64,000 bases of DNA from Leptospirales bacterium. Its GTDB lineage: Bacteria > Spirochaetota > Leptospiria > Leptospirales > Leptonemataceae. The position numbers were made by a program, and so were the translations under genes. Positions 9,534-64,000 of the stretch are shown here, one piece after another (the first letter of the stretch is position 1; every line of letters starts with the position of its first letter). Below the pieces are notes generated by a model, which saw only the letters and a program-made list of their open reading frames with translations, did no database searches and had not been told where the DNA came from. The stretch covers positions 1 to 64,000 of the forward strand of contig JAIBBN010000007.1 of the NCBI GenBank assembly GCA_019694655.1, given 5' to 3'.

Positions 9534-10619
9534 ATGAAGCATCGGATCCAGGCATTCCTTCTCCTCCACGCGCTGGGGGCCTGTCAGTTATTCAGTCCAG
9601 ATGCCGGGCGATTATTGAATGATCGAATCATTCGCGATTTTGCCTCGACCGAACAGCAACGAGTCTTCTTTGGCACAAACCGAGCAGTCCATGGTCGCCC
9701 CGATTGCCTGAACCGATCCTTCACTACCGAAACCGGCGAGTCTTTGCAATTGGGCCTCTGCGAAGTCAACAGTCCCAAACGTCGCGCGGTGGGTGAGCTG
9801 CCGCAGGCGGACTCGCGCAACGCCAGCAACGACTCCTTCTTCAAGATTGGCCGCTACAGCGCAGCGGATGGGACCCAACTTGCGGCGGCGCTGGCCGCTG
9901 AACCAGGCGAAGAAGTACTGGTCTTTGTTCATGGCTTTAACGTCCGCTTTGAGGAAGCCGTCCTGCGAGCCGCGCAAATTGCTTATGATCTCAAATTTCA
10001 AGGGGCGGTTGCCGTCTTTTCCTGGCCGGCGGGCGCCAGCGACGCTCCTCTGTCCGATCTGTTGATCAATCAAACCTACGCACAAAATCGTCAAGCGGCG
10101 GCGCAGTCCGTTCATCGCTTCAGCGAGTTTATTGAGCTGATCCATCGCAGCAACAAGCGCATTCACCTGCTGGTGCATTCCATGGGACATCAGGTCGTAA
10201 TTCCTGGCCTGCTTGAAGCCAGACAAAGGATTGGCGATTCGTTTCTCCGTGAAGCGATCTTCAATGCTCCCGACTATGCTGCTGATGAGTTTGCATTGCA
10301 ATCCATTCCGCTCCGGCAAAGCGCACGTCGAATCACATTGTATTGCTCGCCGGGCGATAACGCTTTGATCGCTTCGCGACAAACCAATGGCAACTATCGC
10401 ATTGGACTGTGTAAACGGATCGAGGGCATCGACGTCATCAACGTAAACGAGGTGGACTCGCCAGCGCTGGGCCTCGGCGGCCTCGGCCATGGCTACTACA
10501 GCGGCAGAGCAGTGCTAACCGACGTCTATCAAACCTTGCTGGGGATCGATGCTCGTCGCCGACTGTTCGTTCGCTTGAGCGATCCGGGCGGCGGCGAAGA
10601 ATTTATTCTGCGCCATTGA
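9534..10619 (+). CDS. Alpha/beta hydrolase lipoprotein (DUF900-type)
   Basis: About 361 residues. The N-terminal FLLLHALGAC reads as a lipobox. The hydrolase core shows VLVFVHGFNVRFEEAV (oxyanion loop), VAVFSWPAG, the nucleophile elbow LLVHSMGHQV (G-x-S-x-G with the first glycine replaced by V-H) and FNAPDYAADEF. These steps match DUF900 hydrolases (Pfam alpha/beta hydrolase of unknown function), which are often exported. A late Asp (YCSPGDNAL) and the C-terminal LGGLGHGYY are candidate catalytic Asp and His. Substrate unknown; an esterase or lipase role is possible. Confidence 0.75.
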   Translation: MKHRIQAFLLLHALGACQLFSPDAGRLLNDRIIRDFASTEQQRVFFGTNRAVHGRPDCLNRSFTTETGESLQLGLCEVNSPKRRAVGELPQADSRNASNDSFFKIGRYSAADGTQLAAALAAEPGEEVLVFVHGFNVRFEEAVLRAAQIAYDLKFQGAVAVFSWPAGASDAPLSDLLINQTYAQNRQAAAQSVHRFSEFIELIHRSNKRIHLLVHSMGHQVVIPGLLEARQRIGDSFLREAIFNAPDYAADEFALQSIPLRQSARRITLYCSPGDNALIASRQTNGNYRIGLCKRIEGIDVINVNEVDSPALGLGGLGHGYYSGRAVLTDVYQTLLGIDARRRLFVRLSDPGGGEEFILRH

Positions 10620-10656: not shown

Positions 10657-12210
10657 TCAAGCACGGGCACTCGCCGATGCGCATAACGAATACAGCGCCA
10701 CGGCTACGGCGGCGGCGGCATTGAGCGATTCGACGCTCGGACTCATCTGAATGCGCAGCTTTTCGGCCTGGAAACCGACAGGAAGTCCCTGCCCCTCGTT
10801 TCCAACCACCAGGCCGAATGATTTTGGCGCATTGACCTGCCGCAAGTCTTCGCCTGTGGCATCGAGGGCATAAAGGGGCAGCTTTGCATTGCGACACCAA
10901 TCCGGCAGGCCCCGCAAAGGAGGGCCGGCGTACATTGTAAGCTGTAGCGCCAGGCCAGCTGAGGAACGCAGGCTGCGCGGATGATATGGATTGGCCGCCT
11001 CTTGCAGGAGCACAATACGACTGGCGCCCAGGGCTCCGGCGCTGCGCAGTGCAGCGCCAAGATTTTCGGGATCGCCAAGCGGTAAGAATAGCGTGCAGCC
11101 GTCCGGCGACTCCTGCGGGACTGCTGGCAAAGCCGGCGCCTTCACAAGCGCCAGCATGCCGGGCGCCCCGATTTGATTCAGTTCATCGAACAATTCGCGA
11201 CTGAAGACCTCGAGAGCGGGCCCATTGCTACAGCTCTCTTGCCAGGCGCTAGCCTGCTGCAGGGCCGCAGTATCGTGTTCGCGCAGCAGAAAAGCGACGA
11301 CTCGATCGGATTGATGCCGCACTATCTCGGCAATGAAACGTTCGCCGCAGAGCAGGCTCAGTCGCTCCTGTTTGACGTAGCGCCCGGACCACAATGAGAT
11401 GTAACGCTTGAAGCGGGCATTGTCGCGAGAGTGAATCAGCAATGGACTCCCCAATCTGTCTTCCTCCCTGCTTGGCAGTTTCTCGTACACCAGAAGCACG
11501 CGTCGATCTTCGGAATTCGGAAGCGTATAGCGTCTTTGCAGCAGCTGGCGAAAAGGAAACCTGGCTCCCAGATTCGCCGCCTCCTCCTCCCCCGCCGGAC
11601 CCTTCATAAAGATGGCCAATCCGCCATCCTCCAGAATGCTCGCGGCGCGCAACAGCGTGCGCTCAACGCTTTCCACGGCGCGCGTAATCAAAGCCTTTGT
11701 TCGCAGCTCGCTGCGTTCCGAAATCCGTCCGGTGTGAACAATGACATTCTGTAGTTGTAAGGATTCCACCACGCGCTCAACGAAATCGGTCCGTTGCTTC
11801 CGACCATCGGCCAGAATGAAACGATGGTCCGGCAAGGCAATGGCCAGCGGGATTCCTGGAAAACCCGGCCCGGTGCCAAGGTCCAGCATCAACGACGGCC
11901 AGGCCAGGCCGGCTTCGTGTATCAGCTGGATTACAATCAACGAATCTACATAGTGTTTGCGAACGATATTCTCGAAATTATGAATCCGGGTCAGATTGAG
12001 CTCCGGATTACTGGCTCGCAGCATCTGGTGAAATTTCCAGAGCCGCCCGCCGGCCGTTTCAGGCAGCTCGATCCCGGCTCGCTGCAGCTCGGCGCTTAGC
12101 TGTTGCTCATCGATTTGCGACGCAGCTGCCTTTTGCCGAGGCCGGCCGGTCGGACCGCGCCTTCCAGACCCGTCTGCTTGCCGCTTCACAGGCTTCTTGC
12201 CGGGTCGCAT
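10657..12210 (-). CDS. Fusion of 16S rRNA m7G527 methyltransferase RsmG with a SpoU/TrmH 2'-O-methyltransferase
   Basis: About 517 residues with two complete methyltransferases. Residues ~35-245 are RsmG: the SAM motif LDLGTGPGFPGIPLA (109-123), then ADGRKQRTDF and ALITRAVESV. Residues ~255-517 are a SpoU-class enzyme: a substrate-binding subdomain (LIHSRDNARFKRYI), then PLGDPENLGAALRSAGALG (motif 1), GLVVGNEGQG (motif 2) and MSPSVESLNAAAAVAVALY (motif 3). The first 30 residues are basic, as in RNA-binding extensions. RsmG methylates G527 of 16S rRNA; the SpoU target is unknown (2'-O ribose of rRNA or tRNA). No internal stop separates the halves. Confidence 0.88.
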   Translation of the reverse strand: MRPGKKPVKRQADGSGRRGPTGRPRQKAAASQIDEQQLSAELQRAGIELPETAGGRLWKFHQMLRASNPELNLTRIHNFENIVRKHYVDSLIVIQLIHEAGLAWPSLMLDLGTGPGFPGIPLAIALPDHRFILADGRKQRTDFVERVVESLQLQNVIVHTGRISERSELRTKALITRAVESVERTLLRAASILEDGGLAIFMKGPAGEEEAANLGARFPFRQLLQRRYTLPNSEDRRVLLVYEKLPSREEDRLGSPLLIHSRDNARFKRYISLWSGRYVKQERLSLLCGERFIAEIVRHQSDRVVAFLLREHDTAALQQASAWQESCSNGPALEVFSRELFDELNQIGAPGMLALVKAPALPAVPQESPDGCTLFLPLGDPENLGAALRSAGALGASRIVLLQEAANPYHPRSLRSSAGLALQLTMYAGPPLRGLPDWCRNAKLPLYALDATGEDLRQVNAPKSFGLVVGNEGQGLPVGFQAEKLRIQMSPSVESLNAAAAVAVALYSLCASASARA

Positions 12211-12316: not shown

Positions 12317-13474
12317 ATGTTTGAATGGGTCCACTATCAGTTTCCGGCGCGCGTCTTTTTCGAGCGCGACGCTACCCACAAGCTTGGCAATCTGATTCGC
12401 GACATCGGTTCGCGAGTGCTGGTGCTGGCCATCCGTTCGGAGCTGGCCAATCCCGACGAGCTGGCCGTAATCAAGACGAGCCTGGAGAAGCACACGACCG
12501 GGGCGATCATCTATGATGATATCCTGGATTCGCCAGGACCGGAGGAGCTCGACACAGCCGCCTATTTTGCCAAGCAATGTAAGGCAGATGTAATCCTGGC
12601 ATATGGCTCGCGAAAGACCTTCTACGCGGCGCGCGCCATAGCGACGCTGGCAAGTAACGAGATATTTGCCGCCGATCTGGAGCAATCGATGCTGCCCTTG
12701 CGCAAGCCGCCCCGGCCGGTCGTAACTGCGCCGGTAGGGCCATCGATGGGCGAGGAAACTTCCCCGTCCTTCATGATCTACAATGCAGGCAACCGGCGTG
12801 CTGTCCATGCCTACGACTACCGACTCTTCCCCGCACTGACCTTTATTGATCCGAATATTTCTACTGCTTTGCCGCCAAACGAAATGGCCAGGGGCGGCAT
12901 TGCTGTGCTGAGTTCCGCCATCGAAGCAATTCTCTCCAAGCGCTCCAACGAATTTACAAATTCCATTGCGTTGCGTTCCATCGAGTTGATCACCCGCAAT
13001 CTGGTTCCGTTAATGAATGAACCGGGCAACGCCTCGGCGCGTGCAAACGTTTGTATGGCCAGCGCTCTGGCTGGCATGGCGCATTCGAACAGTATGCTTG
13101 GACTCTGCTACAGCATTGCGGGCGCCGCGGCCAGTCTGACCGGACTCGACTTTCAAATGGCAATGGCGATCTTGCTCCCGCACATAATGGAGTACAATTT
13201 GACGACCTCCGCGGGCAAGTACGTGCAGATCGCTCGCGCGCTCGATGAGGACATCCGCGACATCACCGTAATTGAGGCGGCGATTAAGGCCGTCGAAGGC
13301 GTACGTAAGATTTACCTGGAATTGAAGGTGCCCCAGCGGCTCTCCGAATTCGACATCGAGAAGGCCGACCTGCCGGATATTGCGGAGCTGGCCTATACCA
13401 TGCCGCTGATCAAGAACACGCCGCGCGAACTCGACCGCAATGAGATCGAAACGATCTTGATTGCCGCATACTAA
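12317..13474 (+). CDS. Iron-containing alcohol dehydrogenase fold protein lacking the metal ligands (probable pseudoenzyme)
   Basis: About 386 residues, a normal length for the family. The overall family pattern is clear (SNSMLGLCYSIAG, AILLPHIMEYN), but the four metal ligands, aligned by eye to FucO-type enzymes, are gone: the Asp is A196, and the three His are S200, Y265 and F279. The GGGS NAD motif is also lost (AYGSRK, residues 95-100). The ATG at 12317 is chosen because upstream in-frame codons precede the family N-terminus. A dehydrogenase function is therefore doubtful; a scaffold, ligand-binding or different catalytic role is possible. It sits 94 bases before ilvC. Confidence 0.75.
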   Translation: MFEWVHYQFPARVFFERDATHKLGNLIRDIGSRVLVLAIRSELANPDELAVIKTSLEKHTTGAIIYDDILDSPGPEELDTAAYFAKQCKADVILAYGSRKTFYAARAIATLASNEIFAADLEQSMLPLRKPPRPVVTAPVGPSMGEETSPSFMIYNAGNRRAVHAYDYRLFPALTFIDPNISTALPPNEMARGGIAVLSSAIEAILSKRSNEFTNSIALRSIELITRNLVPLMNEPGNASARANVCMASALAGMAHSNSMLGLCYSIAGAAASLTGLDFQMAMAILLPHIMEYNLTTSAGKYVQIARALDEDIRDITVIEAAIKAVEGVRKIYLELKVPQRLSEFDIEKADLPDIAELAYTMPLIKNTPRELDRNEIETILIAAY

Positions 13475-13568: not shown

Positions 13569-14570
13569 ATGGCAAAAGTTCTCTACGATAGCGACTGCGA
13601 CCTTTCTCTACTGAACGGAAAAACCATAGCGGTGCTTGGCTACGGCAGCCAGGGCCATGCCCAGGCGCAGAATATGCGCGACCACGGCTACAAGGTCATC
13701 ATCGGTCTCAAATCTGATTCCAAATCTCTGGCCAAAGCGAAAGAAGACGGCTTCGAAGTTCTCGAACCGGCAGCCGCCTCCGCCAAAGCAGACATAATTC
13801 AACTACTGGCCCCTGACCAGGTACAAGGTCAAATCTACCAGGATTCGATTGCGCCGCATCTGAGCGAGGGCAAGGCGCTGGTATTTTCCCATGGCTTCAA
13901 CATTCACTATGAAATAATCAAGCCGCCGTCCAATGTCGATGTGTACATGGTCGCACCCAAAGGTCCGGGCCATCTGGTTCGTCGAGTCTACCGTGAAGGC
14001 GGCGGCGTACCATGTCTGATTGCCGTACATCAGGACGCCACGGGCAAGGCGCGCCAGCGAGCCCTGGCTCACGCAGCAGGAGTTGGCGGCGGCCGCGCAG
14101 GAATTCTGGAAACGACCTTTCGCGATGAAACGGAAACCGACCTTTTTGGAGAGCAGGCTGTGCTCTGCGGCGGACTGACTTCTCTGATCCGCAGCGGTTT
14201 TGAAACATTGGTCGAAGCCGGCTATGATCCAGACATCGCCTACTTCGAGTGTTTGCACGAGGTGAAGCTGATTACTGACCTCCTCTATGAAGGCGGCATG
14301 GCGCGGATGCGCTTTTCCATCTCCGATACCGCTGAATACGGGGATTACACCCGGGGTCCGCGCGTCGTTGACGCTCATGTTAAAGAGAACATGAAGCAGG
14401 TGCTGGCCGAAATTCAAAAGGATAAAGGCATGAAATTTGCCCGGGAATGGCTGGACGAAGCCAAACAAGGGTACCCAAACTTTACCCGGATGCGAGAGAA
14501 CGGGAAACAACATCAGATCGAAGAGGTCGGCGGCAGGCTGCGCTCGATGATGAAGTTCCTCAAGGGCTGA
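13569..14570 (+). CDS. ilvC: Ketol-acid reductoisomerase
   Basis: About 333 residues, class I length. The NADPH-binding Rossmann motif is [11 protein letters not shown] (residues 19-29) and the catalytic region has [12 protein letters not shown] and [14 protein letters not shown] with acidic Mg2+ ligands; the C-terminal knotted domain is present ([12 protein letters not shown]). It converts acetolactate to dihydroxy-isovalerate in valine, leucine and isoleucine synthesis. No strong Shine-Dalgarno is visible before the ATG. A short GC-rich hairpin (13535-13553) lies upstream. No other branched-chain genes are adjacent. Confidence 0.97.
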
Positions 14571-61335: not shown

Positions 61336-61779
61336 TCAGCCTTCCAGTTGTTCCATAATCGATACGCGTACCAGATGCTCCGGATGATTGGAAATGACCT
61401 GGCGACCGCGGCGCGACCCTTTGTGGATCAGTACCGGGCCCTGGAGGTTGGCGGTCATGCCGCGCGGATTGTTTTGCGGAATGGTCACAATGAGATAAAC
61501 CGAACACTGCTCCACGCCATCGACGCCAAGCGACTCCAATTCGCCAGCCGCCGGTTGCGGACGATAGGCCTGGCGCAGAAAAAGTTCAGGTTCGATCACC
61601 ACAAAGGCCAGGCCGGGCTCCTCTGTCGACTGCAACCATTTGAAGACCGACTCGCCGGATTCAGCCAGCAGCACAAAGTCGCGTCGATCGCCAAAGCCCA
61701 GCAGGCCGTCGGCGAAGGTGATCACATCAGTCGCAGCTATTTCAACTTCGCCAAGCGCTTTCGTTGCCAGTGTCGTCAT
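61336..61779 (-). CDS. fliW: Flagellar assembly factor FliW
   Basis: About 147 residues. [38 protein letters not shown] and [35 protein letters not shown] match FliW. FliW binds flagellin or CsrA, allowing flagellin translation to follow filament assembly. ATG at 61779 gives the family N-terminus (61881 is longer and overlaps flgL). Between flgL and csrA, the usual order. Confidence 0.93.
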
Positions 61780-61799
61780 CTTCTTTGGTTCGAGGGCGT

Positions 61800-63068
61800 T
61801 CAACGGAGGAAGTCCATCAATTGCGGACGTATGATCCGGGCGCCGACATTCATTGCATAGTTGTTCACTGTTTCCAGCCACTTCAGGTTGATGATAGTTT
61901 CCGGAACATCAATGCCTTCGCTTTGCGCCAGCAACTCGGTCATATAGCTCTTATCCCACGAGACCCGCTTGTCATGTTCATCGACGCGATTCTGTCGTGC
62001 GCCCACTTCGGAACGATAGCGGAGAACATTGTTCAATGACTCATCGAGGTTGCCCAGGTCGCGGCCGGAAATCTCCAGCTGATCGCCGGCCAGGAGGTCA
62101 TTGCGAAATTTGATCAGAACATCAAAGATCGACAGGCCGGACAGGCGCGCCGTTTCGCTGTAGTTGTTGGGCGGCTGCGATTTCTCGGGATTGATCAGTC
62201 CGATGTCGCGCAGCGTGGTGCCGCCCTCGACATCCTCCAGCCAGATCTGGTGCGGCGTCGTCGTATGCAAGGAAACAAAATCCTGACCAATCTTGGAGGC
62301 GCGTACTTCCAGATTGGCATTGTTGATTTTGTCGATGATATCATCGATGGTGTCGCCGGCCGCCACGCGAATTTCTACGCCGTCGATTTTGAAACTCTGG
62401 TCGGTGGTCGCGCTGTAGCCGGAATTCTCGACGCTGCCAGTGAGCGTCATGTTTGTTCCCCAAAAAACGCGGTTGCCCGGGATGTTTACGTCGAGGTACT
62501 GCCCGCGTTCTACTTCACGCAACTGGCGACCAATATCGCCGCGGTATTCTACAGAAATGATCTGGTTGGCCAGTTCCACGCCGCGCAAACCGCGGATGTT
62601 CGATTCAATGGGCTCGAAGGGCGGACGCTCCGCCACGTGGCCGCCAAAAAGCGGCCGGCCGACGCCATCGCGTCCATTGGCAATATCGATCAGCGCCCGC
62701 AGATGCTGATCTACTTCCTTGGCAATTGCATTCTTCAGCTCAAAAGCATTGTCGCCCTGATAGATGCCGTTAGAGGCCTGCACGGCCAGTTCGCGCACTC
62801 GTTGGAAGATCGAGCCAACTCGATCCAGCTCGCCATCCATCAGATTCAGCCGGTTGCGCGCTTCGGAAAGCGTACTGTCGAACTGCGAAAGCTCCTCCAG
62901 GCGCGTTCGAAAATGCATCTGGTTGGCGGCGGCTGATGGGTCGTCGCCGGGCCGCTCGATGCGCTGACCGGTGGCCAGCTGATTCTGCACGCGGTCGAAT
63001 TCGTACTGCTGGCGACTCAAGTTGCGCACCAGTTGTCCGTTTTTCATCAGGTCGGTGACTCGTATCAT
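61800..63068 (-). CDS. flgL: Flagellar hook-associated protein FlgL (HAP3)
   Basis: About 422 residues. N-terminal flagellin-like helix (MIRVTDLMKNGQLVRNLSRQ, ATGQRIERPGDDPSAAANQM) and C-terminal VGARQNRVDEH... region with a helical end. The middle holds a variable domain with a GTGGT-type loop (VEGGTTLRDIGLI). It links hook and filament. Follows flgK with a 46-base gap. Confidence 0.93.
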   Translation of the reverse strand: MIRVTDLMKNGQLVRNLSRQQYEFDRVQNQLATGQRIERPGDDPSAAANQMHFRTRLEELSQFDSTLSEARNRLNLMDGELDRVGSIFQRVRELAVQASNGIYQGDNAFELKNAIAKEVDQHLRALIDIANGRDGVGRPLFGGHVAERPPFEPIESNIRGLRGVELANQIISVEYRGDIGRQLREVERGQYLDVNIPGNRVFWGTNMTLTGSVENSGYSATTDQSFKIDGVEIRVAAGDTIDDIIDKINNANLEVRASKIGQDFVSLHTTTPHQIWLEDVEGGTTLRDIGLINPEKSQPPNNYSETARLSGLSIFDVLIKFRNDLLAGDQLEISGRDLGNLDESLNNVLRYRSEVGARQNRVDEHDKRVSWDKSYMTELLAQSEGIDVPETIINLKWLETVNNYAMNVGARIIRPQLMDFLR

Positions 63069-63114
63069 CGTTCCTGTCCTCTCTGATCGCTCATTTTTGT
63101 TTTAGATAACGGGC

Positions 63115-64000
63115 TCAAATCTTTAGCCGGTTGATGATCGTATCCAGAATCTGATCCTGGGTGCTGATCACCTTCGCCGAGGCATTGTAGCTGTGCTGAA
63201 ACTGCACCATATTGCTCATCTCTTCGTCGAGACTGACGCCCATGACGCTCTGTCGCATTTTGTTGAGGTGAACAAGGTCGTCCTTCTGGCGCAGCACGTT
63301 GTTTTCCGCGGCGCGCGATTCCGTACCCAACCTGGCGATCAGCTGTGTGTAGAATTCCTCGGTATTTGCAGCGTCGCCGATCATACGCCGTTCTTGCTTG
63401 AGGGCGGCGGCAATCAAGAGGGCGTTGGAACCATCGCCGGCCCCGCCGGCCTGGTTGTAGTCGCCGGTGCCGCCGATGTCGGCGCCGCGTCCTGCAGCTA
63501 TGGAGGCCGGATCGCGTGCAACCTGTGCTGAAAGCTGCATATAGGCCGAGGGATGAAAGATCGGCGTCAGAGTGATGTCCTGGAGGGGCGAGCGCAGCTT
63601 GGCGATCTCATTGACTCTACGGAAGTCATAGGCGCCGGCTTCTCCGGCGCTATTCAGAATTCCGGCATAGCCGACCAGCAGTTCGCCGGAATCTTCCAGA
63701 TGGCGGATCATGAAGTTGGAGCGTCGATCATCGCTGGCGGTGAGGGCCTTGATCGCCAGCTGGTTGTCATGGCTCATGTAGGCGACTACGCCAGCATCGC
63801 TGTCATTGATACGGCGAATGATATCATTCATCGTGTCGTCGCGCGAGTAGTCGATGCGCACCACTGTATTGGCCGCGTCATTGCGCATCAGAGAAAGCGT
63901 ACCATCGACGCCAACGCGCCGCGTTGGATCGACCACATTGGTTCCGGTCACGCGAAAGACGGCGGTGACTTCGGCTGTTCCGTCCTGATTCAGGTCAAAA
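63115..64000 (-). CDS. flgK: Flagellar hook-associated protein FlgK (HAP1), C-terminal part, truncated by the window edge
   Basis: The frame is open to base 64000, so only the last ~295 residues are present. The C-terminal end is diagnostic: MGVSLDEEMSNMVQFQHSYN and VISTQDQILDTIINRLKI. An inner segment (VQVARDPASIAAGRGADIGG-like) is the variable domain. HAP1 caps the hook before HAP3. The GTG at 63951 is internal, not the real start. Confidence 0.93.
   Translation of the reverse strand, partial: FDLNQDGTAEVTAVFRVTGTNVVDPTRRVGVDGTLSLMRNDAANTVVRIDYSRDDTMNDIIRRINDSDAGVVAYMSHDNQLAIKALTASDDRRSNFMIRHLEDSGELLVGYAGILNSAGEAGAYDFRRVNEIAKLRSPLQDITLTPIFHPSAYMQLSAQVARDPASIAAGRGADIGGTGDYNQAGGAGDGSNALLIAAALKQERRMIGDAANTEEFYTQLIARLGTESRAAENNVLRQKDDLVHLNKMRQSVMGVSLDEEMSNMVQFQHSYNASAKVISTQDQILDTIINRLKI

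Follow-up and report, generated by a model that had tools for sequence, protein, structure and literature searches.

The DNA analysed here, hereafter the window, is a stretch of 64,000 nucleotides from a Leptospirales bacterium (GenBank assembly GCA_019694655.1, contig JAIBBN010000007.1, positions 1 to 64,000). It encodes a protein, P0001, with the fold of the iron-containing alcohol dehydrogenases (Fe-ADHs) and none of their metal ligands. P0001 belongs to a family of apparent pseudoenzymes, termed pseudo-ADHs, that most of the spirochaete phylum has retained and that is connected with the sigma28/FlgM branch of flagellar assembly. We propose that the family is a non-catalytic offshoot of the Fe-ADH superfamily that was probably inactivated a single time and re-used in flagellar biogenesis with the FlgM branch, a reading we consider probable as a whole.

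The pseudo-ADH open reading frame extends from an ATG at 12317 to a stop codon at 13472-13474 with no interruption. P0001 scored 81.9 bits against PF00465 and 118.8 bits against PF25137, both well over the gathering score, and aligned over its whole length by phmmer with 1,3-propanediol oxidoreductase (3bfj, 1.1e-35) and FucO (1rrm, 2.9e-31). Membership in the Fe-ADH superfamily, and the FucO-type relationship given in a preliminary description of the window, are thus borne out; all 39 aligned family members likewise match both Pfam domains at E<=0.001. P0001 is not a FucO equivalog (167 bits versus a curated NCBIfam cut-off of 537) or an ErcA equivalog (NF041833; 165.8 bits versus 550), and any NCBIfam equivalog name was ruled out, the score being far under every cut-off. 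AlphaFold2 runs on P0001 (one sequence; three-row alignment) returned a pLDDT of about 40 and a pTM below 0.3. The divergent neighbor of the gene encodes 517 residues that join RsmG (GidB), the 16S rRNA G527 methyltransferase, to a SpoU-type RNA methylase, and is itself adjoined by a DUF900 alpha/beta hydrolase gene (9534-10619, plus strand). The window's family has at least three more genomes (L056, L074, L075) in which a fusion of similar length adjoins pseudo-ADH. A flagellar cluster on the minus strand occupies the end of the window (61336-64000), approximately 48 kb from pseudo-ADH. Coordinates are collected in Table 1.

Table 1. Features of the window discussed in the text.
Feature	Position	Strand	Basis or remark
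Divergent neighbor, RsmG-SpoU methyltransferase fusion	10657..12210	-	Context; rsmI-flgM upstream in other families
Fe-ADH-fold pseudoenzyme, 385 aa (P0001)	12317..13474	+	Pfam PF00465 and PF25137; orthologues in 58/61 relatives
Degenerate dinucleotide loop AYGSRKTFYA, residues 95-104 (canonical AxGGGSxxDT)	12599..12628	+	Alignment
Degenerate second cofactor motif PVGPSMGEE, residues 139-147 (canonical PTTAGTxxE)	12731..12757	+	Alignment
Ala196 codon, at FucO metal ligand Asp196	12902..12904	+	phmmer and family alignment
Ser200 codon, at FucO metal ligand His200	12914..12916	+	phmmer and family alignment
Tyr265 codon, at FucO metal ligand His263	13109..13111	+	phmmer and family alignment
Gly269 codon, at FucO catalytic His267	13121..13123	+	phmmer and family alignment
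Phe279 codon, at FucO metal ligand His277; Lys/Arg in many relatives	13151..13153	+	phmmer and family alignment
Candidate interaction region, residues 288-343, PHIMEYNLT...DITVIEAAIKAVEGVRK...PQRLS	13178..13345	+	Many of the most conserved family sites
Downstream neighbor, ketol-acid reductoisomerase IlvC	13569..14570	+	Context
FliW-like protein	61336..61881	-	
FlgL-like	61800..63068	-	Flagellin_N match
FlgK-like C-terminal part	63115..63999	-	

In FucO numbering, the metal ligands are D196, H200, H263 and H277, with His267 as the catalytic histidine. The blocks that carry them align with P0001 without gaps: GVDALTHAIE of FucO with GIAVLSSAIE, LGLVHGMAHPLGAF with LGLCYSIAGAAASL, and PHGVANAILLPH with DFQMAMAILLPH. 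The Asp-His-His-His set of a catalytic Fe-ADH therefore reads A/S/Y/F in P0001, confirming all four ligand losses of the preliminary description, and replacement of the catalytic histidine by glycine adds a loss that it had not listed. Its remaining structural claim, a degenerate NAD loop reading AYGSRK, also held: the FucO cofactor loop GGGSPQD has become GSRKTFY, with Gly97 kept and the third glycine and serine gone in P0001 and in nearly the whole family. GSRK and VGPSM stand where GGGS and TTxGT are expected. Canonical Fe-ADHs from the sampled spirochaete genomes retain Asp196, His263 and His277 in 17/17 cases and His200 and His267 in 16/17. Because such proteins nearly always keep their ligands, the substitutions in P0001 go far beyond chance. 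Maleylacetate reductases illustrate that metal loss alone is no proof of lost catalysis in this superfamily; it is the concurrent loss of the cofactor motifs and catalytic histidine that makes the P0001 family, judged from its sequences, very likely non-catalytic.

An orthologue of P0001 is present in 58 of 61 related genomes and in all 42 of those of good quality. All class-level orthologues extracted are without the ligand set, and a wider draw across the phylum produced additional ligand-less relatives in more than 20 further families. The reading frame is intact in all relatives, and dN/dS was below 0.1 in every computable pair of close orthologues, with protein identity of up to 98% and synonymous sites near saturation, indicating strong purifying selection. 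These observations answer the preliminary description's call for orthologues with common substitutions and support its suggestion of a retained non-dehydrogenase function. In a tree built by a quick method (unrooted, ligand columns included, SH-aLRT support only), a single branch with SH-aLRT 99 parted 49 ligand-less proteins, P0001 among them, from 18 canonical spirochaete Fe-ADHs. The ligand-less proteins are, on this sequence evidence, one group, and inactivation probably took place once and early, in an ancestor of the phylum. Two Fe-ADH paralogues outside the FlgM-linked family (L055:5760-6902, minus strand, and L213) have lost their ligands in part (THHQP and TLQNY), possibly as separate losses.

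Among the 49 ligand-less proteins, none has His263 or His267, one has His200, one has His277 and 13 have Asp196, and at most two of the four ligands are retained in any one protein. Substitutions at the old metal place fall into two patterns. Of the 24 proteins with an acidic residue at 196, 19 have Lys or Arg at 279; of the 25 with a non-acidic one, 2 have Lys there. These counts describe related sequences and not independent events. Roughly half of the family carries an acidic/Lys-Arg pair at the metal place, and the rest, including P0001, mostly non-polar residues. In the first of these groups, the cation was likely replaced by a salt bridge, and in the second, by mostly non-polar packing. 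The acidic/Lys-Arg pair offers a clear illustration from nature of how the fold of a metalloenzyme may be stabilized in metal-free form.

Conservation in the group now resides elsewhere. The five former active-site columns rank between 191 and 353 of 385 in information content within the ligand-less set. At the C-terminal positions P288, E292, E327, R330, P339 and R341, conservation reaches 84-100%; of these, R341, R330 and E327 show clearly lower conservation among canonical Fe-ADHs. Such a move of conservation toward the C-terminal domain suggests a binding surface as opposed to a changed active site. In the N-terminal cofactor loop, Gly97 is invariant family-wide, and most members also have Gly98 and Lys/Arg106.

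Clustering of the neighbors of 43 ligand-less loci revealed two recurrent upstream genes on the same strand, encoding an RsmI-type protein and FlgM, the anti-sigma28 factor. The RsmI-type neighbor, a tetrapyrrole-methylase-like protein named by sequence motifs without a family search, occurs at 27 of the 43 loci. A FlgM profile located flgM in the gap upstream of pseudo-ADH at most loci, and an independent scan with the curated FlgM model of Pfam matched the same places. By comparison of positions, flgM lies directly upstream of pseudo-ADH on the same strand in 86 of 112 genomes from 26 families. Direct reading of loci added 11 families (f6, f11, f13, f18, f21, f35, f37, f40, f43, f50 and f51) for a total of 37, with rsmI-flgM-pseudo-ADH as the usual order. 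In the same survey, no canonical Fe-ADH locus had a FlgM neighbor, and in the clustering of 43 loci no flagellar gene other than flgM was conserved beside pseudo-ADH. In one clade (L063-L073), cheW is found on the opposite strand, directly or approximately 2 kb downstream of pseudo-ADH, which adds to the chemotaxis/motility setting. The occurrence of pseudo-ADH across most spirochaete families, usually just behind flgM, argues for a probable re-use in the making or regulation of flagella.

Linkage is usual but inconstant, and the pseudo-ADH group is therefore defined by sequence. Pseudo-ADH is present but unlinked from flgM in f1, the family of the window, and in f14, f19, f26, f28, f31, f32 and f39. 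In f1, it sits between the divergent RsmG-SpoU fusion and ilvC, and both pseudo-ADH and flgM are retained; the flgM of the window's genome is at G000:C19:23927-24112, and its pseudo-ADH is not directly downstream of it.

A sigma28-type site, defined as at least 10 of 12 consensus positions in TAAA-N14-16-GCCGATAA, was found in 69 of 80 regions upstream of flgM; shuffling gave an expectation of 2.9. Most of these sites end 16-31 nt ahead of the flgM start, and the unlinked flgM of the window's genome (L159) has one as well. The flgM unit thus looks sigma28-dependent from its upstream sequence. No sigma28-type site was seen ahead of the window's pseudo-ADH, and a search of its upstream region for a sigma70 or sigma28 promoter yielded no convincing candidate.

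The distribution of pseudo-ADH across the phylum was compared with that of the sigma28 system. The genomes of f33, which we infer from genome size and gene content to be a Borrelia-like lineage, encode flagellin and yielded neither FlgM nor an ADH-like match, nor any FliA scoring over the cut-off; Borrelia is described as being without sigma28 (PMC12655853). In f44, by similar inference Sphaerochaeta-like, there is no flagellin, FliA or FlgM, and ADH matches are canonical but for one unrelated ligand-poor paralogue. Absence of pseudo-ADH in these families tracks absence of FlgM/FliA, in agreement with a link. Flagellin, FliA and FlgM occur together in the absence of pseudo-ADH in several small genomes, those of f42, f46 and f48 and G083, which measures 1.1 Mb. 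In genus g79 of f40 (L096, L131-L133; G147, G192), FliA is found, along with FlgM in most members, with neither flagellin nor pseudo-ADH, and the sigma28 system has apparently been kept without filament genes. Given these flagellin-encoding genomes without pseudo-ADH and the situation in g79, the protein is accessory, not obligatory, and has been lost in some reduced genomes.

We envision that an ancestral Fe-ADH was inactivated early in spirochaetes and then recruited to flagellar biogenesis. Pseudo-ADH would share a transcript with flgM, making it a late flagellar gene under sigma28, and its product would work in the cytoplasm through binding to a member of the FlgM/FliA-flagellin branch, most likely FlgM or FliA. 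The predicted binding surface would center on the conserved C-terminal helical domain (E292, E327, R330 and R341). In the window's family, the gene would have moved off flgM, with both genes kept and the protein still conserved. A role in the flagellar/sigma28 branch is well favored by these data, and direct action on FlgM/FliA is proposed tentatively, with the balance slightly against it. Held with the same reserve is the fuller scenario in which the fold, inactivated at the spirochaete root, became a dedicated FlgM/FliA partner and a new component of late flagellar control. If true, such a partner could help explain the unusual behavior of spirochaete FlgM.

A place beside flgM would suit any function in flagella and does not single out regulation. 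Pseudo-ADH might belong to the same sigma28 operon and yet act independently of FlgM, serving as a chaperone, in export or assembly, or as part of the flagellar structure or the chemotaxis system. The sigma28-type operon and the nearby cheW of one clade are in keeping with such a function, and a filament-related one would fit the joint absence of flagellin and pseudo-ADH from g79; however, flgM alone among flagellar genes accompanies it through 37 families, and we regard this alternative as rather unlikely. Less likely still is a redox or metabolite sensor that relays metabolic state to FlgM/FliA through the remaining nucleotide-binding half of the fold. The persistence of Gly97, Gly98 and Lys/Arg106 would suit a sensor, as would the precedent of ErcA, a Pseudomonas Fe-ADH homologue named as a regulatory protein (NF041833; PMC12997753), but the cofactor loops are degenerate and variable, with P0001 retaining one of three loop glycines.

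Retained catalysis is improbable. Pseudo-ADH could have lost iron and kept an NAD(P)H-dependent reaction, as the superfamily includes metal-independent enzymes such as maleylacetate reductase and many deep members of the family retain GxGG and Lys at 106. Against this, no member has His267, nearly every one is without the TTxGT motif and without the Ser and third Gly of GGGS, and the genomic surroundings point to flagella and not to metabolism. Moreover, a changed active site would be conserved, and the old active-site columns are among the less conserved. Losing all ligands could by itself resemble decay, but a decaying pseudogene or a loss isolated to a single genome is excluded for practical purposes because the loss is common to orthologues that are under purifying selection, intact in frame and retained phylum-wide.

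The preferred reading, a non-catalytic Fe-ADH fold at work in flagellar biogenesis, bears on how spirochaete genomes are interpreted. Databases score P0001 as an iron-containing ADH, which allows it to be tallied under metabolism in these genomes. Spirochaete periplasmic flagella are central to shape and motility, making a conserved, unstudied gene of the flgM operon a direct candidate for study. Our literature search, which covered few subscription journals, found no published ADH-like gene beside flgM, and an earlier mention is possible. In Leptospira biflexa, an FlgM homologue is the best-connected regulator in a biofilm co-expression network (PMC4863578). Spirochaete FlgM is reported to act in an unusual way: in Treponema denticola, it stabilizes FliA, and flagellin expression falls when it is deleted (PMC12655853). 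In the parts of the T. denticola literature available to us, FlgM is TDE0201, TDE0200 is annotated as a tetrapyrrole methylase, and sigma28 promoters carry CCGATAA. The TDE0200-TDE0201 locus numbers match the rsmI-flgM order; those same portions differ from our loci in that their descriptions of FlgM/FliA do not mention an ADH-like gene beside flgM.

Among relatives of the fold, ErcA resembles P0001 as an Fe-ADH homologue implicated in regulation and not bulk metabolism (PMC12997753). ErcA has no flagellar link, however; its gene accompanies that of a histidine kinase in an ethanol-oxidation cluster, and the Pseudomonas putida homologue of ErcA is described as an Fe2+-dependent ADH. P0001 has the same length and domain order as the group III Fe-ADHs FucO (lactaldehyde reductase) and DhaT (1,3-propanediol oxidoreductase), with a core alignment of approximately 360-376 residues, but has lost the catalytic His267, all four of the metal ligands and the two cofactor motifs. 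Maleylacetate reductases have the Fe-ADH fold without a metal, are catalytic and keep cofactor binding; they match P0001 only marginally in sequence (3hl0, 3w5s).
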